Assembly (NCBI GenBank): GCA_011526085.1
Contig: WYBC01000008.1
Span: 36,724 to 100,723, forward strand
Source: Lysobacter sp.
Lineage (GTDB): Bacteria > Pseudomonadota > Gammaproteobacteria > Xanthomonadales > Xanthomonadaceae
Direction of reading: 5' to 3'
DNA: 64,000 nt
Below the pieces are notes generated by a model. It worked only from the letters and a program-made list of their open reading frames with translations. It was not told where the DNA came from and did not search any database. Made by a program: the position numbers and the translations under genes. Within the stretch, counting starts at the first letter, position 1, and every line of letters begins with the position of its first letter. This document shows, piece after piece, positions 1 through 64,000 of the stretch.

Positions 1-1944
1 GCGCGGGATCCCGGCGCCTTCGACGATAGTAAATCCACCGGCGCCTGAACCCGACCCCGCCGCACCGTCCAGGCCGGCCATCTCGCAGACGCCGTTGTGC
101 AGGCGGCAGGCGATGCCGATCCGGCGATAGCCGAAATCGTCGAACAGGCCGATCAGCTGGCCCTGCAGGGTGGTCACGAACGAGGCGTCGCCGACGCTCG
201 AAATGTTCTGCACCGCGCGCTGGCTGATGCGCTGGCGCACGCCGCGCTTCTTTTCGGTATGCAGTTCGGCGTCGAAGGCGGTGGCGGTCCAGTCGACCAG
301 GCGCAATTCGCGGATGCCGCCGTGCAGCCGGCCGCTGATGCTGCCGAAGTCGAACACTTCGGTGACCGACAGCAGATCGAGATCCTGCAGCGCGAGGTCC
401 GCCGACAGCGTCGGCGCGACGCCGAAGGGCCGCTCCATCGCCAGCGACGACACCGTCACCCGGCCATCGAACACCCGCATCTCCAGGCCGCCTTCGAACA
501 CCAGACGGTCGGCCGCGAAACGGGCATCGGGAATCGTGCCGCTGAGCGTGCCGCGGAACGCCGGCCAGCCGAGATTCTTCGCGAGCGTGCCGATGTCGAT
601 CGCATCGAGGGTCAGGCCGAAATTCGCCTCCACGCCGCGGTCGCCCGACGGCGGGCGCAGCTGGAATCGGTCGAAACGCAGGCTGCCGCCGACCGCGGGC
701 ACGGTGGCCGGCGCGCGCAGGCCGATGCCGCCGTCGGCGCTGCGCAACGCCAGCGTCGATGCGCCGAAATCGAGACCGTAAAGCTGTCCGCTGCGCCAGC
801 GCAGCGCACTGTCGGCGGGGCCGTCGCCGGAGAAGCGTACATCGCCGTCGAGACCGTCGAAGCGGAACATGCCGCCGCCTTCGCGCACATCGACCGCTTC
901 GAAGCGCGCATCGAAACCGCGCAGTCCGGTGGCATCCAGTTGCACGCGGCTGCGCAGTCTTCCGGCAAGGCCGAGATCGCTCAGGCCGAAACTGCCGAGC
1001 CAGCCGGACAGATAGCGACCGGTCACCGGCGCCAGGTCGTCACTGGAGACTTCGACATCAAGCGCGCGCAGCGCGCCGTCCGGCGCGAACGCCGCCTCGC
1101 CGCGCGCCGCGAGCGTGCCGCCGTCGCGCCAGTCGATGGTCGGCAGGCGCCAGCCGGCATCGTCGCCGACGGCCTCGATGCGCAGCGCCACCGGCGTCTT
1201 CGGCAGCGCGACATAGGCGCTGCCGAACAGGAATTCGCCGCCGCGCAGTTCGCCGTCGAGATCGATGCGCTGTTCGTTCGCGGCGATGCGGTAATCGAGC
1301 GCGAACCGCGCGCCGAGACCTTCGGCGGCGATGGTGGCGTCGGGCGTTTCCAGCGCAACGCCCTGGAAAGTCAGCGGCCCGGCGATGCGCAGCGGACGGT
1401 CGGCCGGTGCGCTGACGACGAGCCGGCCGTCCATCAGGCCGTTCTTGAAACGGCCGTCGGCCCACGCACGATCGAGCAGCGCCTGCGACCAGCGCATCGG
1501 CACCTGCAGCAGATCGATGCGGGTGTCGTCGGGCGCCGCGGCCTGGCGATGGACTTCAAGCCGCGCCGCCCCCTGGCGCAACGCCACGTCGGTGTAGGCG
1601 GTGCCGAGATCGACACCGAGCCGCATCGGGGCGCCGCGGCCGGCGCGCAGATCGCCATCGCAGCGCCAGCCGCCCGCGCCGTCGCGCTGCAGCGGGCACT
1701 GCCAGACGAGATCGTGGAAGCGATAACCGAGGTCGGGCGCGTCGAGCGTGCCGACCCGCAATCGCAGGGTGCCGCGGTCGGCCTGCGCTGGCCAGTCGAG
1801 CCGCACGTCGACGCGTTCGAGCGTGGCCAGTCCGGTCGCGATCCGCGCGATGCTGGCGGTCGCGGTGCGCGCCTGCGTCGTCTGCGGCCAGAAGGCCGCG
1901 CAGAGCGCGAGCGACAGCAGGATCGGTAAGATGCGCGACGACAT
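1..1944 (-). CDS. AsmA/YdbH-like envelope protein, partial (C-terminus off the left edge)
   Basis: One open frame of 648 codons starts at 1944 and has not reached a stop at base 1, so the gene continues outside the window. Residues 1-25 form a signal peptide or anchor (LPILLSLALCAAFW, then QTTQA). The rest lacks enzyme motifs and is built of short alternating polar/hydrophobic strands with many L-x-G-x-L steps, the style of the AsmA/TamB/YdbH family of long beta-groove proteins linked to phospholipid transport between membranes. Segments GVRQRISQRAVQNIS and DDFGYRRIG near the visible end suit the C-terminal part of YdbH-type members. The gene is read divergently from the receiver-Hpt gene with 24 bp between starts. 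Being an exported protein is well supported; the family is inferred from architecture. Confidence 0.62.
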   Translation of the reverse strand, partial: MSSRILPILLSLALCAAFWPQTTQARTATASIARIATGLATLERVDVRLDWPAQADRGTLRLRVGTLDAPDLGYRFHDLVWQCPLQRDGAGGWRCDGDLRAGRGAPMRLGVDLGTAYTDVALRQGAARLEVHRQAAAPDDTRIDLLQVPMRWSQALLDRAWADGRFKNGLMDGRLVVSAPADRPLRIAGPLTFQGVALETPDATIAAEGLGARFALDYRIAANEQRIDLDGELRGGEFLFGSAYVALPKTPVALRIEAVGDDAGWRLPTIDWRDGGTLAARGEAAFAPDGALRALDVEVSSDDLAPVTGRYLSGWLGSFGLSDLGLAGRLRSRVQLDATGLRGFDARFEAVDVREGGGMFRFDGLDGDVRFSGDGPADSALRWRSGQLYGLDFGASTLALRSADGGIGLRAPATVPAVGGSLRFDRFQLRPPSGDRGVEANFGLTLDAIDIGTLAKNLGWPAFRGTLSGTIPDARFAADRLVFEGGLEMRVFDGRVTVSSLAMERPFGVAPTLSADLALQDLDLLSVTEVFDFGSISGRLHGGIRELRLVDWTATAFDAELHTEKKRGVRQRISQRAVQNISSVGDASFVTTLQGQLIGLFDDFGYRRIGIACRLHNGVCEMAGLDGAAGSGSGAGGFTIVEGAGIPR

Positions 1945-57661: not shown

Positions 57662-57743
57662 GCACGACGCGGCCGTCAAAGCACATCGCAATCTCCGCGC
57701 CCGGTCGAGATCGCCGGTTCAATCGCTTGGTCTCGACGCCCAC

Positions 57744-57876
57744 GGTAGAGCGGCCTTCAGGCCGCTGTCTTCCGTATTTGAACGGCAATGGCCTGAAGAC
57801 CGCAAGGCCGCTCTATTTTTCTGAAGAGCAGCGGCCTGGCTTTCAACAGTCGAATGACTGGTCAGGCCGCTCTACC
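57744..57876. repeat. REP-like intergenic inverted repeat cluster
   Basis: GGTAGAGCGGCCT (57744-57756) is mirrored by AGGCCGCTCTACC (57864-57876); two inner copies of the same AGGCCGCTCT motif lie at 57805-57814 and 57825-57836, the first followed by ATTTTT. This makes nested hairpins between the convergent DUF1697 gene and the next gene, so it can terminate both. The form (short palindromes in an intergenic gap) is that of a REP/BIME element. Confidence 0.7.
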
Positions 57877-57908
57877 GATTGGATTCGATGCGGATTCGGT
57901 ACAGGCCG

Positions 57909-58949
57909 TCAGGCCATCCCGACGTAGATCTGCGCGTACAGCGGGTGATCGACCTCGCCGAGCAGGCGCAGGCGCTGATGCTCGGGCAACACCGAGGCGA
58001 TCTTCTCGAACGTATCCAGCGGCGACAGACCTTCGGCCACGACTTCGTCGACCACCGGCTGCGAGAGTTCCCAGTCGGCGGCCGTGCGCGCGAGATCGGC
58101 GGCGTCCTCGCGACTGAGCAGATCGTGGACGACCATCACCCGGTCACGCACCCGCTCCCACTCGCGGGCGTCGACCTGCCCCGACTGCAGGAAACGATCG
58201 ATGATCGCCTCCTGCAACGCGGACAGACGGCTGGCGCGCTCCATGTCCACCGCCATCTGCATCTGGCGCTCGTCCAGCTGCGGCACCGCCTGCCCGGTGG
58301 CTTCGGAAACGCGCTCGCCGACCTGGCGCATCTTCTCGGCATCCGGCATTTGCTTCGCCAGGATGTGATCGATCGAGCGCGCGTAAAGCTCGATGAAGAC
58401 CGGCGCGAAATTCAGTGCGTCCACCCGCAGCGCGTCGCCGTCGAGCGGCTGCGTGCGCAGCGCGGCGAAGGCATCGGCCGGCGCCAGCGCGGGATCGGCG
58501 ATGCAGCGGCTGCCCGGCGGCACGTTGTCCGGATCGTGGATGGGATTGGTGGTGACGGTGCAGGTGCGGTAGTCCTCGTACACCCGCACCACGTCGAAGA
58601 ACGACGGCATGACCTTGTGATCGTAGACCGCGGCGGCGGTGCCGTCCTGCGGGTGGGTGCCCGTCCACAGCTGCATGCCCTGCATCTCCGGCACCGAGTA
58701 GCGGCCGACTTCGGCGAAACCGGCGGCCAGCATCGCTTCGATCAGGCCGGCGGTGCCCGGCTGCTGCCAGGGCTGCACGTTCGGCTCCAGGGTGATGCGC
58801 GCGGCGATCCCGGTCTGCGGCAGGTTCGCCATCGCGGCGATCTTGCGCGCCAGCCACCACGGCAGCGCGTAACGCAGCAGCAGCCACAGCAACAGGATCA
58901 ACCCGATCAGCGTGGCCACCGCCACGATCAGCACGTTCAACAGCGTCAT
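57909..58949 (-). CDS. Hypothetical membrane-anchored protein
   Basis: A 346-residue product with an N-terminal membrane segment (LNVLIVAVATLIGLILLLWLLLRY, 4-27) and a large soluble domain with RITLEPNVQPWQQPGTAGL, YDHKVMPSFFDVVRVYEDYR and helices rich in charged residues (EKMRQVGERVSEATGQAVPQ). Two cysteines (CTVTTNP and SRCIAD) might pair. The C-terminal side is predicted cytoplasmic or periplasmic; this is not clear. No family is recognised. Confidence 0.72.
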   Translation of the reverse strand: MTLLNVLIVAVATLIGLILLLWLLLRYALPWWLARKIAAMANLPQTGIAARITLEPNVQPWQQPGTAGLIEAMLAAGFAEVGRYSVPEMQGMQLWTGTHPQDGTAAAVYDHKVMPSFFDVVRVYEDYRTCTVTTNPIHDPDNVPPGSRCIADPALAPADAFAALRTQPLDGDALRVDALNFAPVFIELYARSIDHILAKQMPDAEKMRQVGERVSEATGQAVPQLDERQMQMAVDMERASRLSALQEAIIDRFLQSGQVDAREWERVRDRVMVVHDLLSREDAADLARTAADWELSQPVVDEVVAEGLSPLDTFEKIASVLPEHQRLRLLGEVDHPLYAQIYVGMA

Positions 58950-59373
58950 CTTGCATTCCCCGGCCGAGCGACCTTTCCGTCAGTGTACGGATCCCCGGGG
59001 AAATACGGAATTCGGGGTGTCCGGCGGCCAGCCCGCCGCTGCGCTGATCGGTGCCCGGGTGGAGATGGCGTGACCTCGGCCGCCGGCAACAGCGACCGAC
59101 GACTGCGGCCATGGGGCAGGTCGCGGAACCACCATCCGCAGACCATGGCAGCCAGCCGCCCAGGATGGCGGTGAGCGCAGCGAACCCCACTCACGCGACG
59201 CGTCCGCATGTCGCAGGAAAACGAAACGACCGCATGCGGGCGGCCGTCGATACATCGCTTCGGAGTTCGCCGCGGCTGTTGCGCCGATGGGTGGGATTCG
59301 CTGCGCTCACCGCTACCCGACGAGTCCACCCTGCGAGCTTGCGGGTTGAAACTCTACTATGCCCCCTGTTTTC
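58950..59373. other. Gene-free stretch bordering the integron, with a 23-bp inverted repeat
   Basis: No credible gene lies here. It contains an imperfect inverted repeat: GCGGTGAGCGCAGCGAA at 59168-59184 (arm to 59190) and its complement at 59291-59313, one mismatch in 23. The right arm is followed by GGGTAGCGG-type sequence (CGCTACCCG on +) typical of short intergenic repeats. The right border abuts the truncated attC at 59374, and base composition changes there. Confidence 0.6.
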
Positions 59374-59384
59374 AATTGTTAGGC
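59374..59384 (-). repeat. Truncated attC at the end of the array
   Basis: Only GCCTAACAATT of the attC (minus strand) remains after the last cassette gene; the next bases (GAAAACAGGGGGCATAG) do not match. The site has lost its stem and far core, so the terminal cassette can no longer excise. Confidence 0.82.
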
Positions 59385-59873
59385 CTCACTTGCCGGCCCG
59401 CATTTCACGCTGGAGAGTGCAGTGAACTGCTCATGCAGCCGCGCGACTTTGAGGCGCCGCCAGCCCTCAAGATTCTCATCTTGCGCAAGTCCTTTTTCAA
59501 TCAAGAGCTTTAGCGCCCAAGCATCTAATCCATAGAAATCGTACCTATCTAAGTACGACAATAACTGCGGCTCTAGTTTTGCAACTACGTCCGCCGGCCA
59601 AGATGGCAAGACATGCTGAATCAAAGCCGATTTTTGCGCGGGTTTGATGGAGGACTCAAGAGCATCTCTGACGAGTCCCAGTGCAGGCTCACCAAGTTCC
59701 GCAAAGAAAGGGCGAATCAACAACTCAACTTCAGACCCATTTGTTTCGAGCCACTGAAATAGGCTCGGAAGAACAGGTTCCACGGCAGGAAATCCAAGCG
59801 CAAGGATTGCACGAGCACCTTCAACGTCCGTTCTGTCTTTTGGCAGGAGTTTGGTCAGCTCAGATCTTTCCAT
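59379..59873 (-). CDS. Cassette gene 1 (terminal): DUF5071 protein
   Basis: A 164-residue protein with the DUF5071 pattern LLPKDRTDVEGARAILALGF, PAVEPVLPSLFQWL and IKPAQKSALIQHVLPSWPAD: helical, HEAT-like. DUF5071 proteins occur widely as small, single-domain proteins of unknown role. The stop TAA is the one inside the attC core (GCC-TAA-C). Last cassette of the array, beside the truncated attC. The trailing PASEA residues are partly encoded by the cassette end. Confidence 0.85.
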   Translation of the reverse strand: MERSELTKLLPKDRTDVEGARAILALGFPAVEPVLPSLFQWLETNGSEVELLIRPFFAELGEPALGLVRDALESSIKPAQKSALIQHVLPSWPADVVAKLEPQLLSYLDRYDFYGLDAWALKLLIEKGLAQDENLEGWRRLKVARLHEQFTALSSVKCGPASEA

Positions 59874-59876
59874 AAG

Positions 59877-59988
59877 GCCTAACGCCTGAGTTAAGCCGCC
59901 CCGCAGTGGGGCGGCGGACGCCTGCTAGCGTAGCGTAGGCACGTGGCCGACGCCACGGCGCGGGGTCGGCTTGAATGAATTGTTAGGC
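59877..59988 (-). repeat. attC site A (112 bp)
   Basis: Long-type attC of cassette 2. Outer cores GCCTAAC (59877-59883) and GTTAGGC (59982-59988); inner arms CTTGAATGAATT/AACGCCTGAGTTAAG and a long GC-rich stem region with the CTGCTAGCGTAGCGTAGGCACGT-type inner imperfect palindrome. Confidence 0.93.
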
Positions 59989-60405
59989 CTCACGCCTGCG
60001 GACGTAGAAGGCAGTGGCAATTGCCCATATGGATAAAAGAGCTGGTGCCTGTAGGAGCATTAGATCAAAACCGTAGGACAGGCCAAGAGCGACTGACTCC
60101 AACAGCTCCAACAAAGCCAACGAAACAATACAAGCTATCAGTAAACGTCCGCACCACTTGCTAAAACGGAGAAAAATTGTGGATGCGATGATTGTGATGC
60201 TTGAGATGACAAGTAGTAACGAAACGAGCCTAACTCTGAGCGGCCATTCATAGGGGGTGCCGGCAAGAACTTCAATACGCATCTCGCCGAGAACCCATGC
60301 GCTAGCCAATAGATACCAGGATGCAATGCCGATATTGATTAGCAGAAATAAGGTGTAGCCAAGCCACATCACGGGCGTCATTATTTTTACAGACGAAATT
60401 TTCAT
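59983..60405 (-). CDS. Cassette gene 2: small multi-pass membrane protein
   Basis: A 140-residue protein with four hydrophobic segments (MWLGYTLFLLINIGIASWYL; VSLLLVISSITIIASTIFL; LLIACIVSLALLELLESVAL; LLQAPALLSIWAIATAFYV). Start ATG 60405. The reading ends VRRREA-TAA, with GCC and TAA supplied by the attC core. No family recognised. Confidence 0.8.
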   Translation of the reverse strand: MKISSVKIMTPVMWLGYTLFLLINIGIASWYLLASAWVLGEMRIEVLAGTPYEWPLRVRLVSLLLVISSITIIASTIFLRFSKWCGRLLIACIVSLALLELLESVALGLSYGFDLMLLQAPALLSIWAIATAFYVRRREA

Positions 60406-60417
60406 GTGTGACGTGAG

Positions 60418-60530
60418 GCCTAACGCCTGAGTTAAGCCGCCTCCCGGCGGGGCTGCGGACACGTGCAAGCGTAGCGCATAGCACGCGGCTGACGCCACGA
60501 CGCAGGGTCGGCTTGAACGAATTGTTAGGC
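60418..60530 (-). repeat. attC site B (113 bp)
   Basis: Long-type attC of cassette 3. Cores GCCTAAC (60418-60424) and GTTAGGC (60524-60530). The central part (TCCCGGCGGGG; GCAAGCGTAGCGCATAGCACGCG) differs slightly from the others. Confidence 0.92.
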
Positions 60531-60953
60531 CGCGCCCTCAAGGGCGCGCTCAATGCTGTGTTCGAATGCGCTGCTGAAGGGAGTGCGCGCCCCTGCAAGC
60601 AGCTGCTCTAAGAAGTCTTCGGCGACCGTGCAAGCAGGCTTCCAAAACTTCTTGAAGAAATAGCGTGGTACATCAGTTGCGCCTTGAGCATATGCGGCAT
60701 GCACGAGATATACGCCTACCCAGATTCTGCCACGTTGCACGAGAATTCCAGCTTCTCCTCGGGAAGAATGCACAGCCTGGTCCAGCTGTTCGCGCTCGTT
60801 ACGGAGCCACATATCTAACAGCGCTATAAATTGTGGCTTGACGAAAGCGCCACCTTCGAAGCTCGGCCCAGTCATTTTAGCCGAGGAGAACGCCTGATAG
60901 ATCACGGAATGGACTTGATTGGTGAAGTGGCGCTTCAGAATCCACGAAAACAT
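60525..60953 (-). CDS. Cassette gene 3: hypothetical protein
   Basis: A 142-residue soluble protein with no signal peptide. Aromatic-rich helix FVKPQFIALLDMWLRNEREQ, then EAGILVQRGRIWVGVYLVHA and YFFKKFWKPACTVAEDFLEQ. Ends LEGAA-TAA using the attC core stop. Not recognised; might be an orphan cassette protein. Confidence 0.72.
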   Translation of the reverse strand: MFSWILKRHFTNQVHSVIYQAFSSAKMTGPSFEGGAFVKPQFIALLDMWLRNEREQLDQAVHSSRGEAGILVQRGRIWVGVYLVHAAYAQGATDVPRYFFKKFWKPACTVAEDFLEQLLAGARTPFSSAFEHSIERALEGAA

Positions 60954-60969
60954 ACAAACGCTCCTAGCG

Positions 60970-61029
60970 GCCTAACGCCTGAATTAAGCCGAGCCGCGAA
61001 GCGGCTTCGGCTTGAATGAATTGTTAGGT
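60970..61029 (-). repeat. attC site C (60 bp)
   Basis: Short-type attC of cassette 4. Cores GCCTAAC (60970-60976) and GTTAGGT (61023-61029). The terminal T (minus strand A) is mirrored by the start of cassette 4 (TTAGGT), the expected core/inverse-core complementarity. Confidence 0.93.
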
Positions 61030-61427
61030 GCCATGGCCGAGATCACCGAGCGCAGGTCCTCCACGGCACGCTGCCGAATTTTGGGGGACTTGATATGGCC
61101 GGGCAAACGGCTGAGCCAGTGACTGTTTGGGCCGTGCCCGCCGCCGCGGATTGCGGACAGGCGGCGTGAGGTGGGCAAAGGCTTGCGCCCAAGCACCTCA
61201 ATGCACTCACTGAGCTGGTCGGCAGATGAGAAACGAAAGACAAAACCTTGAGACTCGATGCAGAGCACCGGGTAGCCACTGCGGCCCTCAGGCCTTGGGG
61301 CGGGAGGCTGATATTTCTCAGACGAACGCCAAAGGGAACCGGCTTGCTCTACATGAACCCAATAAGCCATGGGCTCGTCCCGCCAGTCTTGGACGTGCTC
61401 AATCCAGTTATGGGCAACTTTTCCCAT
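60984..61427 (-). CDS. Cassette gene 4: hypothetical protein with attC-encoded tail
   Basis: A 147-residue protein: HNWIEHVQDWRDEPMAYWVH, RSGYPVLCIESQGFVFRFSS, and LPGHIKSPKIRQRAVEDLRS. The end, APNNSFKPKPLRGSA, is translated from attC site C in the frame CCT-AAC-AAT. The functional protein is thus about 131 residues plus a 16-residue tail. Cassette proteins with such tails are common in integron collections; family unknown. Confidence 0.7.
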   Translation of the reverse strand: MGKVAHNWIEHVQDWRDEPMAYWVHVEQAGSLWRSSEKYQPPAPRPEGRSGYPVLCIESQGFVFRFSSADQLSECIEVLGRKPLPTSRRLSAIRGGGHGPNSHWLSRLPGHIKSPKIRQRAVEDLRSVISAMAPNNSFKPKPLRGSA

Positions 61428-61430
61428 GGC

Positions 61431-61490
61431 ACCTAACGCCTGAATTAAGCCGAGCCGCGAAGCGGCTTCGGCTTGAATGAATTGTTAGGC
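61431..61490 (-). repeat. attC site D (60 bp)
   Basis: Short-type attC of cassette 5. Outer core on the left is ACCTAAC (61431-61437), matching the start of cassette 4, and GTTAGGC (61484-61490) on the right. Nearly identical to site C over its length. Confidence 0.93.
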
Positions 61491-61874
61491 CGCAGCACGA
61501 CGGCCCGCAAGCCGAACACGAGCGCCGATAAGGGTGCCAAGAATGAGAGCCACCAATAGCGCCAAGTATCCGATCACCAGCAAAGCGAAAGGGGTTGGAG
61601 GAACCTCTAGGGGAACAAGCGCCATCAGTATGAGCCCAATACCCTCACTGAGTAGGACAGTGAGAAAAGCATGTAAGTAGGGGCGACGGGCAACTCGATA
61701 TGCCAGGTGCACAAAGACGCCAGCATACACAGTTAACACCACAGCCTCGGTCCTGAGATATGCGAGAAAAAGGGCTTGTGGATTATCTGAATCTGGCCGG
61801 GGCTCGAAGAATCCGCCAGCTACGCTTGCCAAAAGCAGCAAGAGAGCGTGGGTAGTGACGCTTTTCCAGTTCAC
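61485..61874 (-). CDS. Cassette gene 5: small membrane protein
   Basis: A 129-residue protein with four hydrophobic segments (ALLLLLASVAGGFFEP; TEAVVLTVYAGVFVHLAYRV; AFLTVLLSEGIGLILMALV; FALLVIGYLALLVALILGTL). GTG start at 61874 is the best candidate; the ribosome site is weak. Ends GRRAAA-TAA in the attC core. Not recognised. Confidence 0.75.
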   Translation of the reverse strand: MNWKSVTTHALLLLLASVAGGFFEPRPDSDNPQALFLAYLRTEAVVLTVYAGVFVHLAYRVARRPYLHAFLTVLLSEGIGLILMALVPLEVPPTPFALLVIGYLALLVALILGTLIGARVRLAGRRAAA

Positions 61875-61892
61875 GACGGATCTTCGTCTGCG

Positions 61893-62004
61893 GCCTAACG
61901 CCTGAGTTAAGCCGCCCCGCAGCGGGGCAGCGGGCGCGTGCTAGCGTAGCGCAGGCACGTGGCCGACGCCACGATGCGGGGTCGGATTGAACGAATTGTT
62001 AGGC
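61893..62004 (-). repeat. attC site E (112 bp)
   Basis: Long-type attC of cassette 6. Cores GCCTAAC (61893-61899) and GTTAGGC (61998-62004); central palindrome near GTGCTAGCGTAGCGCAGGC. Confidence 0.93.
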
Positions 62005-62011
62005 GGCAAGC

Positions 62012-62377
62012 TCATTGCTGAAATTCCTCAAAAGGAAGGCCAATGGGCGAAAGCATGAAGGAGATACCGTCACTTTCTTGTTTGACATGCCAGAGGATCA
62101 CTCCATCCGGTTTTACGCCGAAATTGAGTGGAAAAACAAAAGGCGGCAGCCAAAGCAATTGAATATCGCCGTCTCCTGCCCAGCCAGCCTCAAGAAATCT
62201 CTCTTTTGCAATAGCGATGTATGGCGCTGCGTTGCCATCTGTGAATGAGGCTGGGTTTGCCAAGAAATACAGATTGTCTATCCACTCAAACCCATAGACA
62301 TTGAAGGAATTCAAAGCCTCAGGGGCGTATGGAATCACCATGCTCTTTGGTGTAGAAAATGCCAATGAATTCTCCAT
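62012..62377 (-). CDS. Cassette gene 6: hypothetical protein
   Basis: A 121-residue acidic protein, start ATG 62377 just inside the cassette, four bases from the attC F edge. Blocks: VYGFEWIDNLYFLANPASFT, DGNAAPYIAIAKERFLEAGW and GDIQLLWLPPFVFPLN. This is the only cassette gene here with its own stop (TGA at 62012), eight bases before the attC. The shape recalls small SMI1/immunity-type proteins but I do not assign it. Confidence 0.75.
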   Translation of the reverse strand: MENSLAFSTPKSMVIPYAPEALNSFNVYGFEWIDNLYFLANPASFTDGNAAPYIAIAKERFLEAGWAGDGDIQLLWLPPFVFPLNFGVKPDGVILWHVKQESDGISFMLSPIGLPFEEFQQ

Positions 62378-62380
62378 GCC

Positions 62381-62491
62381 GCCTAACGCCTGAGTTAAGC
62401 CGCCCGCAGCGGGGTGGCGGTCACGTGCTAGCGTAGCGCAGGCACGTGGCCGACGCCACGATGCGGGGTCGGCTTGAACGAATTGTTAGGC
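62381..62491 (-). repeat. attC site F (111 bp)
   Basis: Long-type attC of cassette 7. Cores GCCTAAC (62381-62387) and GTTAGGC (62485-62491). One base shorter than sites A, E and I in the central region. Confidence 0.93.
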
Positions 62492-62887
62492 GGCGCCCTC
62501 ATGCAAGATGAGCTGCTGTGATGCACGCAACTCTCTATGTTGATGCGAGCCATCCGGCATTGAGACTTGCACAGAGATCTTTGCTGAGACTTCGTAGGCG
62601 CCAGGGACCAACCCGCTTGGATTCTCTTCATGTTCCAGAGCATCGACCGTGAGGACAACCTCGGTGCCAGCGGTGATCAAGTGTTCTATGCCAGGAAGGC
62701 AAGTAATGTTCTTGACGTATCCAACAATCATTTCGGTGTCCGCCTTGTTCTTGACGAGGCAGGTGGTCGCCTTGATAGAGCCCAAGATTGTCGTGTCTTC
62801 TTCGAAGGCAACGTGGTATCGGAATGGCAGCGATCGCGCTGCGGCCAGATACGAAAAACCTTCCACGAGAGAGACTGAGAGTTGCAT
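62486..62887 (-). CDS. Cassette gene 7: hypothetical beta-rich protein
   Basis: A 133-residue soluble protein, start ATG 62887. Repeated strand pattern (TTILGSIKATTCLVKNKADT; VVLTVDALEHEENPSGLVPG; VSAKISVQVSMPDGSHQHRE) suggests a beta-sandwich. Two cysteines (TTCLV and ITCLPG). Ends LHEGAA-TAA in the attC core. Not recognised. Confidence 0.72.
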   Translation of the reverse strand: MQLSVSLVEGFSYLAAARSLPFRYHVAFEEDTTILGSIKATTCLVKNKADTEMIVGYVKNITCLPGIEHLITAGTEVVLTVDALEHEENPSGLVPGAYEVSAKISVQVSMPDGSHQHRELRASQQLILHEGAA

Positions 62888-62895
62888 TGAGGGCT

Positions 62896-63300
62896 CTACT
62901 GCCGCCTAACGCCTGAGTTAAGCCGCGCCGAACTCGGCAGACGGGAGCCAGTATTGCTCGCACTCCAGCAAGTTTCAACGAAGCCGAGATACGGCGTCGG
63001 CTTGAACGAGTAGTTAGGCGCGAAGGACGCCGGCGAGAGTGAAGCCCTGACGAGCAGGCCGAAAAGCCGAAGCTCGGATACCTGAGCGCACCCAGCGAAC
63101 TGTCCGCCGGTCGTCATCGAAGTGACGCCATCTGGGGCAGGGATGCCGACCGTGAGCCGGCCAGTGCCTCCGAAGCCGAGGACCGCAACGCATGTGACGC
63201 CTGAGCGCGCATTGAGCGCTTGCCGAAGTGACAACGCGCCGGGAGCGTGTCCGAAGAGCACAACTGACCGAAGCCAGTGAATTGCATTTGCGGGCAACAC
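62896..63300 (-). CDS. Cassette 8: doubtful reading frame, possibly non-coding cassette
   Basis: The cassette between sites G and H (about 300 bp) has only one open frame of size, GTG at 63300, 134 codons, running through attC G to stop at 62896. About 94 residues precede the attC; then it continues APNYSFKPTPYLGF in the common tail frame. There is no good ribosome site and the sequence has no recognisable motif (NARSGVTCVAVLGFGGTGRL). A cassette without a gene is possible; some carry promoters or small RNAs. Confidence 0.3.
   Translation of the reverse strand: MLPANAIHWLRSVVLFGHAPGALSLRQALNARSGVTCVAVLGFGGTGRLTVGIPAPDGVTSMTTGGQFAGCAQVSELRLFGLLVRASLSPASFAPNYSFKPTPYLGFVETCWSASNTGSRLPSSARLNSGVRRQ
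62904..63019 (-). repeat. attC site G (116 bp, diverged)
   Basis: The longest and most divergent site, of cassette 8. Cores GCCTAAC (62904-62910) and GTTAGGC (63013-63019); the inner arm reads CTTGAACGAGTA and the centre has GTATTGCTCGCACTCCAG in place of the usual palindrome. Confidence 0.88.
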
Positions 63301-63321
63301 AACTAGAGAAGGCTTTTCACC

Positions 63322-63381
63322 GCCTAACGCCTGAATTAAGCCGCGCCGCGAAGCGGCGTCGGCTTGAATGAATTGTTAGGG
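63322..63381 (-). repeat. attC site H (60 bp)
   Basis: Short-type attC of cassette 9. Cores GCCTAAC (63322-63328) and GTTAGGG (63375-63381). The final G differs from the consensus Y, and the matching start of cassette 9 (TTAGGG at site I) differs likewise, so the mismatch travels with the cassette. Confidence 0.92.
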
Positions 63382-63833
63382 CGAAAAGCGATGCGGTCAC
63401 TGGGTTCTACCGCATCCTGCAATTTGCGAAGTGCCGCGATTGAGACTGAGTACAAATTGGTCTTTGTCCGAGTGCGATTCGCTACGGCCTGTCTAGCAAT
63501 TGTGCCCGGGCCATTGAAAATCTCGACAAAGCTCCCGTCAGCGTTGATCTTTACGGCGATGTAGTAGTCCGGGGTGTGGTCGCAGGGGAAGGTGACGTGG
63601 CCTTTCATAGTGGCTTTGATCTGCACTGACCTGCCAGTGGAACAAACCGCATCGTGGTGATGCTGAAGCCCTTCTAGGAGCTTCAGGTCGTATGCCTCTT
63701 CTACGAGGATCTCACCAATGTCTCCGACCAAGCGGCCGTCGAGGGTGAACCGTTTGTGCGGATAGGTGTGACAGAGCTGCGCGACTATAGCGAGCATCTG
63801 TTTTACAGCCTCGGGAATGCTGATTTGTGTCAT
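63336..63833 (-). CDS. Cassette gene 9: PD-(D/E)XK-like protein with attC-encoded tail
   Basis: A 165-residue soluble protein, start ATG 63833. LVGDIGEILVEEAYDLKLLE followed by HHHDAVCSTGRSVQIKAT gives E-x(n)-D-x(n)-QxK, the layout of a PD-(D/E)XK nuclease core in which Q replaces E, and then the beta-hairpin HTPDYYIAVKINADGSFVEI. The last residues PNNSFKPTPLRGAA come from attC H. DUF6998-like proteins look similar; no methylase or partner is near. The fold is an inference and activity untested. Confidence 0.65.
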   Translation of the reverse strand: MTQISIPEAVKQMLAIVAQLCHTYPHKRFTLDGRLVGDIGEILVEEAYDLKLLEGLQHHHDAVCSTGRSVQIKATMKGHVTFPCDHTPDYYIAVKINADGSFVEIFNGPGTIARQAVANRTRTKTNLYSVSIAALRKLQDAVEPSDRIAFRPNNSFKPTPLRGAA

Positions 63834-63837
63834 TGCG

Positions 63838-63949
63838 CCCTAACGCCTGAGTTAAGCCGCCCCGCAGCGGGGTGGCGGACGCGTGCTAGCGTAGCGCAGG
63901 CACGTGGCCGACGCCACGATGCGGGGTCGGCTTGAACGACTTGTTAGGC
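63838..63949 (-). repeat. attC site I (112 bp)
   Basis: Long-type attC of the partial cassette 10. Cores CCCTAAC (63838-63844), matching the start of cassette 9, and GTTAGGC (63943-63949). Confidence 0.93.
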
Positions 63950-64000
63950 CTCTGTCCGGTCGCCTAGACTCGCGCCCCACATCACAGCACATGCAAACGC
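63944..64000 (-). CDS. Cassette gene 10, 3' end only
   Basis: The last 18 codons of a frame entering from the right edge; it reads FACAVMWGASLGDRTEA and stops at the TAA of the attC core, as in cassettes 1, 2, 3, 5 and 7. Too short to identify. Confidence 0.5.
   Translation of the reverse strand, partial: AFACAVMWGASLGDRTEA

Follow-up and report, generated by a model that had tools for sequence, protein, structure and literature searches.

How cassettes that lie far from the promoter Pc are expressed in long chromosomal integron arrays has been answered only in part so far. The question is raised here by the right end of a 64,000-nucleotide stretch of Lysobacter sp. DNA (assembly GCA_011526085.1, contig WYBC01000008.1), which is occupied by an array of integron cassettes separated by attC recombination sites. 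The whole stretch is referred to as the window; it covers positions 36724-100723 of its contig, C1, in the 4.2 Mb source genome, G000. The initial annotation regarded this region as the distal portion of a chromosomal-integron type of array, most of whose cassettes are unknown, and the data support this. What it overlooked is that the nine window cassettes include a gene-less one, a member of a large family of repeated cassettes. The initial observation is correct, and elements of this kind are known; what deserves further attention is the gene-less family with its predicted attC promoter. We propose that the locus is a resident chromosomal integron with a repeated gene-less cassette predicted to act as a mobile promoter for the cassettes behind it, a reading which we consider fairly probable. 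The features at the center of this proposal are the following.

62905..63322, minus strand: gene-less cassette, 418 nucleotides, window member of the repeated family
62905..63019, minus strand: attC 7, of the type carrying TTGAAA-N17-AATACT
62973..62978, minus strand: predicted −35 hexamer TTGAAA inside attC 7
62950..62955, minus strand: predicted −10 hexamer AATACT inside attC 7
62486..62887, minus strand: cassette open reading frame, 133 amino acids, no family; the gene immediately behind the predicted internal promoter

The gene-less cassette family

Further copies were found on C20, another contig of the source genome (25,244 bases), and in G004, a complete genome of the same genus. Cutting the arrays of the two genomes at attC yielded 97 cassettes, 26 from G000 and 71 from G004. 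The gene-less family accounts for 27 of these (6 in G000, 21 in G004), which are 414-452 nucleotides long and match one profile over their full length. BLAST clustering of the cassette bodies (E <=1e-6, half of the shorter body) gave just two groups with more than one member, and the gene-less family is the only one that spans both genomes; at this sensitivity no other cassette was found to be common to them. The identity among listed pairs of family copies is 66-96%. The copies are scattered along the arrays. On C20 none is found in the first 10 of the 18 proximal cassettes (first at 11; p 0.0065), and in G004 they are absent from the first 6 (first at 7; p 0.12). The second multi-member group consists of six copies of about 450 nucleotides, 81-100% alike and present in G004 only (c12, c28, c33, c54, c56 and c70, approximately 19892 to 49098 of the joined stretch).

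The distribution of the gene-less body was assessed in a set of 395 genomes from 54 genera covering the bacterial family, with one genome per species. A restriction to one genus, suggested by BLAST (2 of 395 genomes), was overturned by the profile search. The sequence profile of the body gave hits at E <=0.001 in 18 of the 395 genomes and 14 of the 54 genera, the weakest of them being uncertain. The search used strict filters and took at most the best six candidates per genome, so that copies are undercounted, and the E-values of the model are rough. More than one match was obtained in at least six genomes besides G000 and G004. Outside the genus, 13 loci reached E <=1e-6, and 11 of them have attC nearby by a simple pattern; for the remaining two (L209 and L224) and for L231, all in genome G034, an attC-like site of another spelling was then found. 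Seven weaker loci (L212-L218) showed no attC by the simple pattern and may be chance matches. Since most of the weaker hits lack attC, the true cassettes are fewer than the 18 genomes suggest. Plasmid records gave no match to the one family member queried, and viral contigs gave none to the attC pattern.

A predicted promoter inside attC

A consensus scan of C20:1-8700 returned 7 promoter-like sites versus 3.4 (standard deviation 2.0) in shuffles. Five of the 7 are one and the same site, TTGAAA-17-AATACT, located in the attC of the five gene-less copies of C20. Among the 97 cassettes the motif occurs in 16, of which 15 belong to the family and one, c22, is a gene cassette of G004. It always takes one fixed place in attC on the sense strand, is directed into the next cassette, and was found 0 times in antisense. 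The carriers are exactly the 16 cassettes whose attC, as cut, is 107 nucleotides long; the set can therefore be defined independently of the motif. When one mismatch was allowed, the 395 genomes contained 17 places in 3 species of one genus only, and all of them are exact. The cassette of the third species (G007) matches the full profile including attC at 4.8e-53; its body alone gives a weak match (15.7 bits, E 0.0034).

Over the 17 sites, none of the 12 hexamer columns varies, versus 8 of the 17 spacer columns and 20 of the 65 columns elsewhere. Fisher's test gave p 0.009 for the hexamers against the spacer and p 0.016 against all other columns, values that are not clean probabilities, as the copies are related rather than independent and the 17th site was found by the pattern itself. 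The promoter score of the attC zone is 12.5 in this type and at most 8.5 in the other 81 cassettes, and among 69 non-family cassettes scored in full a single one attains 12.5, at another place in the cassette. In the window the promoter-like site spans 62950-62978, and the first gene behind it (62486-62887, 133 amino acids) begins about 55 nucleotides from the predicted start.

The following mechanism is proposed. Transcription from Pc would start in the attI region and fade along the array. RNA polymerase would use the hexamers in attC, so that a transcript would start about 40 nucleotides before the attC end. From a hexamer-bearing copy this transcript would read into the next cassette gene and restart transcription there. 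The gene-less copies may persist by keeping distal cassettes expressed.

Several observations speak against this proposal. In 12 of the 21 G004 copies, attC is of the common type and the hexamers are absent (best score 4.8-10.3), so that the predicted promoter is carried by only part of the gene-less family. The bases adjoining the hexamers are conserved as well, and a sliding control was passed at 3 of 66 offsets, all of them shifts of at most 2, so the structure of attC could be what is conserved at the hexamers. A section heading in PMC11014356 states that the promoters of gene-less cassettes are not identifiable in silico. In other genera, 5 of the 9 members (one per genome) have no promoter-like pair. 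In favor of the proposal, the other 4 carry TTGnnn-15..19-TAnnnT or nATnAT in the last 80 nucleotides before attC, versus 0.12 in shuffles and 2 of 70 non-family cassettes; this pattern was chosen after the sequences had been seen and is a lead only.

The G004 cassette c22 (589 nucleotides) combines a 191-amino-acid frame with the attC type that bears the promoter-like hexamers in the gene-less family. A transfer of this attC onto a gene cassette is possible.

The best surviving alternative, to which we give a distinctly lower probability, is that the gene-less cassettes are non-functional passengers whose copies spread by repeated capture and duplication, with the hexamers kept for the sake of attC structure. 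The G004 copies that lack the hexamers fit this view, as does a TTC...GAA beside the −35 hexamer, which is predicted to pair into a small stem when the window site folds. The body, in addition, gives no coding signal and no consensus RNA fold with covariation. What drift would not be expected to maintain are the sequence islands of the body, kept in 27 copies and up to 14 genera (the weakest uncertain), and a strand bias as strong as the one described below. Conserved hexamers beside a variable spacer of fixed length 17 are, moreover, what is expected of a promoter.

The content of the gene-less body

On the sense strand each body has on average 4.26 occurrences of the motif CTTCGG, versus 0.00 on the antisense strand, and other cassettes contain 0.19 per 310 nucleotides. 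In copies of the common length it recurs at about positions 55, 72, 100, 154, 207 and 257. Islands of the type GGCGCGCTC also recur in the gene-less bodies. In 24 aligned rows from other genera, some of which overlap, CTTCGG was counted 73 times in sense and 0 times in antisense. Both the CTTCGG and the GGCGCGC repeats of the body are strand-specific.

Coding of the body was considered and rejected. The longest sense frame has its ATG in the first 30 nucleotides in 1 of the 27 family members versus 45 of 70 other cassettes. The frames are not common to the copies, with insertions or deletions of 1 and 2 nucleotides within four close groups, and in these groups the codon-substitution z ranges from -1.5 to 1.6 across all frames. 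The number of stops per sense frame is 1.85, 1.11 and 2.52 versus 2.70 expected from composition; one frame is thus poor in stops, which counts against a gene-less body.

An RNA product was considered as well. The body might encode a regulatory small RNA, comparable to sRNA-Xcc1 (RF02221), which has been described in a Xanthomonas cassette (PMC6557892, PMC12444791, PMC8876359, PMC11701678); this we hold to be unlikely. A strand-specific motif that is conserved and present in many copies would suit such an RNA. On the sense strand the RNAalifold energy is below 16 column shuffles (z -2.67), and at one of the six CTTCGG slots there is weak covariation of paired bases (p 0.008-0.014, uncorrected). 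The RNAalifold covariation term, however, is 0.2 versus 0.4 in shuffles. Taken one by one, the sequences are no more stably folded than shuffles (mean z +0.31 in sense, +0.40 in antisense), compensatory changes were found in 0 of the 13 pairs predicted in alignment A1 (26 of the 27 members), and no base pair was predicted in the cross-genus alignment of bodies. A search of Rfam at E <=1 with the array loci on C1 (L006) and C20 (L007) gave sub-threshold matches only, with CC3513 and mir-4847 falling on attC, not on the body, and mir-1301 outside the array. RF02221 had no match at E <=1 on these two loci, and no Rfam family reached the gathering score there or at seven further loci. The folded-RNA and coding readings of the gene-less body are not supported. 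A variant of the small-RNA reading, in which the RNA of the body is unstructured and binds protein, is possible.

Layout of the window array

The initial annotation had reported nine intact attC sites in consistent orientation. This was confirmed. The sites lie at window positions 59878-63949 (L006 positions plus 59276), the cassette frames are on the minus strand, and the pattern on the plus strand is CCTAACGCCTGA[A/G]TTAAGC ... GTTAGG. With up to 3 mismatches, the 21-base attC end was found 31 times in G000: 9 times on C1, 18 times on C20 and at 4 stray places. The reversed pattern had 0 matches in the 4.2 Mb genome. The bottom strands of 8 of the 9 window sites fold far better as single-stranded DNA than their 200 shuffles (z -3.4 to -6.9); the weakest is the site at 60418, attC 2 (z -1.53). 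The attC of the terminal cassette (59379-59873) is reduced to R'' and a few bases, followed by unrelated sequence, so that the window array comprises nine intact sites and one truncated site. The window ends where contig C1 ends, and the array is therefore cut by the assembly. The remaining features of the locus are listed below.

57909..58949, minus strand: chromosomal gene next to the array on its distal side, 346 amino acids, no Pfam match; conserved beside parE in six relatives
59373..59384, minus strand: truncated attC marking where the array ends distally, with just its R'' half present
59379..59873, minus strand: terminal cassette open reading frame, 164 amino acids, sub-threshold DUF5071 match
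59878..59988, minus strand: attC 1, distal-most intact site
59983..60405, minus strand: cassette open reading frame, 140 amino acids counted from ATG, no family (query extended by one codon at its start)
60419..60530, minus strand: attC 2, weakest fold
60525..60953, minus strand: cassette open reading frame, 142 amino acids, no family
60971..61029, minus strand: attC 3, short type, 59 nucleotides
60984..61427, minus strand: cassette open reading frame, 147 amino acids, no family
61432..61490, minus strand: attC 4, short type, 59 nucleotides
61485..61874, minus strand: cassette open reading frame, 129 amino acids, GTG start, no family above cut-off
61894..62004, minus strand: attC 5
62012..62377, minus strand: cassette open reading frame, 121 amino acids, no family
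62382..62491, minus strand: attC 6
63323..63381, minus strand: attC 8, short type
63336..63833, minus strand: cassette open reading frame, 165 amino acids, DUF6998 (PF22522, 164.8 bits, cut-off 27)
63839..63949, minus strand: attC 9, whose cassette is truncated where the contig stops

Integrase, attI and the relation of the two contigs

C20 carries an intact integron integrase with an open frame of 339 amino acids (TIGR02249, 485.6 bits versus a cut-off of 265). The contig contains 18 attC sites in the same orientation as on C1, followed by attI and the integrase, which is encoded on the opposite strand and reads away from the cassettes. The closest named integrases are Lysobacter-type records (80-81%). 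The attI core GGTCTAYTAGTAGTTAG is located at the first cassette junction. Nine integrons were aligned in this region (G000, three records of the same genus, one of Luteimonas, three of Pseudoxanthomonas and one of Thermomonas); the core is exact in 5 of them, differs by one change in three others and by more in the last, and TTGAC precedes it in all 9. The best promoter-like site of the attI region, the candidate Pc, is TTGACA-18-CAGCGT with a score of 7.4. An integrase match at E <=1e-40 was found in 9 of the 11 genomes of the genus (G000 included, one with an internal stop) and attC ends in all 11, with 1 to 71 in each. By pattern, G004 has 72 attC-type ends, located around the start of its record.

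The initial annotation had expected the integrase to the right of the window, and named the lack of integrase or attI there, together with an unvarying cassette order among strains, as what would point to an isolated remnant. Integrase and attI are present in the genome, together with the 18 attC sites of C20; it is the connection of C20 with C1 that depends on matching ends. The integrase search of G000 placed none on C1. By the 21-base-end pattern, only two contig ends lie inside an array, the right one of C1 and the left one of C20, and their orientations match, while the four stray attC-like hits are all internal to their contigs (two at C16:48389-49508, 1.1 kb apart, one at C25:74363 and one at C23:23458, the last with 3 mismatches). 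From these sole array-internal ends and their fitting orientation we infer that C1 joins C20 across a gap of unknown size and that the two form one integron.

The flanks of the array complicate this picture and count against a single resident array. On C1 it borders a parE-side block and on C20 an SDR/P-type-ATPase block. Both blocks are kept in six relatives, yet they are separated there: in the complete genome G004 they lie at 232 kb and 1,250 kb, about 1 Mb apart, and in the other five they are on different contigs. Either the array marks a rearrangement or the joining of C1 and C20 is wrong. That the window array is a separate CALIN (attC cluster without integrase) and no part of the C20 integron would agree with these distant blocks and with the absence of the join from the assembly, but we judge it improbable, given that no other attC found by this pattern runs off a contig and that the gene-less family with the same attC type is present on both C1 and C20. 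The element is likely a sedentary integron resident in the chromosome. A Xanthomonas-type location near ilvD, mentioned in the initial annotation, did not hold: ilvD is at C9:141253-142908, on a different contig from the array.

An inversion model for the link of C1 and C20 failed, as the fimbrial gene is inside C34 and does not adjoin C15. In four of the six relatives the fimbrial gene is located beyond the distal flank. The left end of C15 (63-230) and the right end of C20 (25020-25189) have a common inverted repeat, 89% over 170 nucleotides. The SDR gene and a YCII block, which are close to each other in the relatives, are split here between C20 and C15. Two further repeats were observed. 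A 31-nucleotide inverted repeat (87%) is located at window positions 59163-59193 and 59288-59318, just beyond the array on its distal side. Near both array flanks, at window positions 57740-57880 and at L007:10549-10622, there is an inverted repeat containing GTAGAGCGGCCTTCAGGCCGCT; the sub-threshold mir-1301 match falls on its L007 copy.

Cassette products

Pfam was searched with ten window proteins, namely the products of eight cassettes and of the flanking gene plus a chance frame from the gene-less cassette, and only DUF6998 scored above cut-off. None of 10 frames from the C20 cassettes did so, and NCBIfam gave no match among nine cassette products. PADLOC returned weak restriction-enzyme matches only; the DUF6998 product (63336-63833, minus strand) shows weak similarity to methyl-directed type II restriction enzymes (E 0.002). 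The second cassette from attI (C20 locus L007, 7284-7811, minus strand) encodes a product with about ten octapeptide repeats of the type S-S-x-N-P-x-V-A. This protein has 31 relatives among the best candidates scored, which are called "hypothetical" where the source gives a name.

Comparison with known integrons

Sedentary chromosomal integrons of Xanthomonas have been described with a recurring "empty" cassette, sometimes several per array, that could have promoter activity (PMC12444791). The array studied here resembles them in its integrase-attI-attC organization, in the bacterial family and in its mostly unknown cassettes; it differs in not being located beside ilvD. Judged by its description in the available part of that article, the Xanthomonas "empty" cassette could be of the same family as the gene-less cassette. 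In the superintegrons of Vibrionaceae, gene-less cassettes have been shown to have sense-strand promoters, and one Vibrio cassette also has transcription starts within attC (PMC11014356). Gene-less cassettes with sense-strand promoters are also known from Treponema-like oral cassettes (PMC6557892). As far as the available parts of these two articles go, the common traits are the absence of a gene, a sense-strand promoter, which in the present case is predicted, and a proposed role in the expression of distal cassettes. Unlike those cassettes, the ones described here form a single family with many copies in several genera, and the predicted promoter is fixed in one attC type. The small RNA sRNA-Xcc1 shows that a cassette of this bacterial family can have a non-coding role, whereas the gene-less body has no RF02221 match and no folded-RNA signal.

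A Xanthomonadales-like attC clade in Lysobacter and its relatives has been reported, with aadA cassettes predicted to be of Xanthomonadales origin (PMC8352920). The sites of the present array are likewise chromosomal and resemble the attC of aadA cassettes. The accessible portion of that article, with whose clade the comparison was made by description, makes no mention of an attC type with TTGAAA-N17-AATACT. In the openly licensed literature, no description of the gene-less family, or of an attC type in which an internal promoter is fixed, was found in the available text of the matches listed.

A more far-reaching, and tentative, interpretation is that the gene-less cassettes form a lineage that spans the bacterial family, with up to 14 genera, is recognizable by CTTCGG/GGCGCGC repeats confined to one strand, and serves as a dedicated expression module of chromosomal integrons. 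In this genus the promoter might have been built into the recombination site, and it might travel along with whichever cassette gains this attC, a step that one gene cassette of a related species may already have taken. The motif of the body, which is strand-specific and kept across genera without a coding or folding signal, is a separate puzzle that can be tested. If the proposal is true, repeated gene-less cassettes would be a standard, mobile part for expression, and an attC site that is both recombination site and promoter would couple the shuffling of cassettes to their expression.

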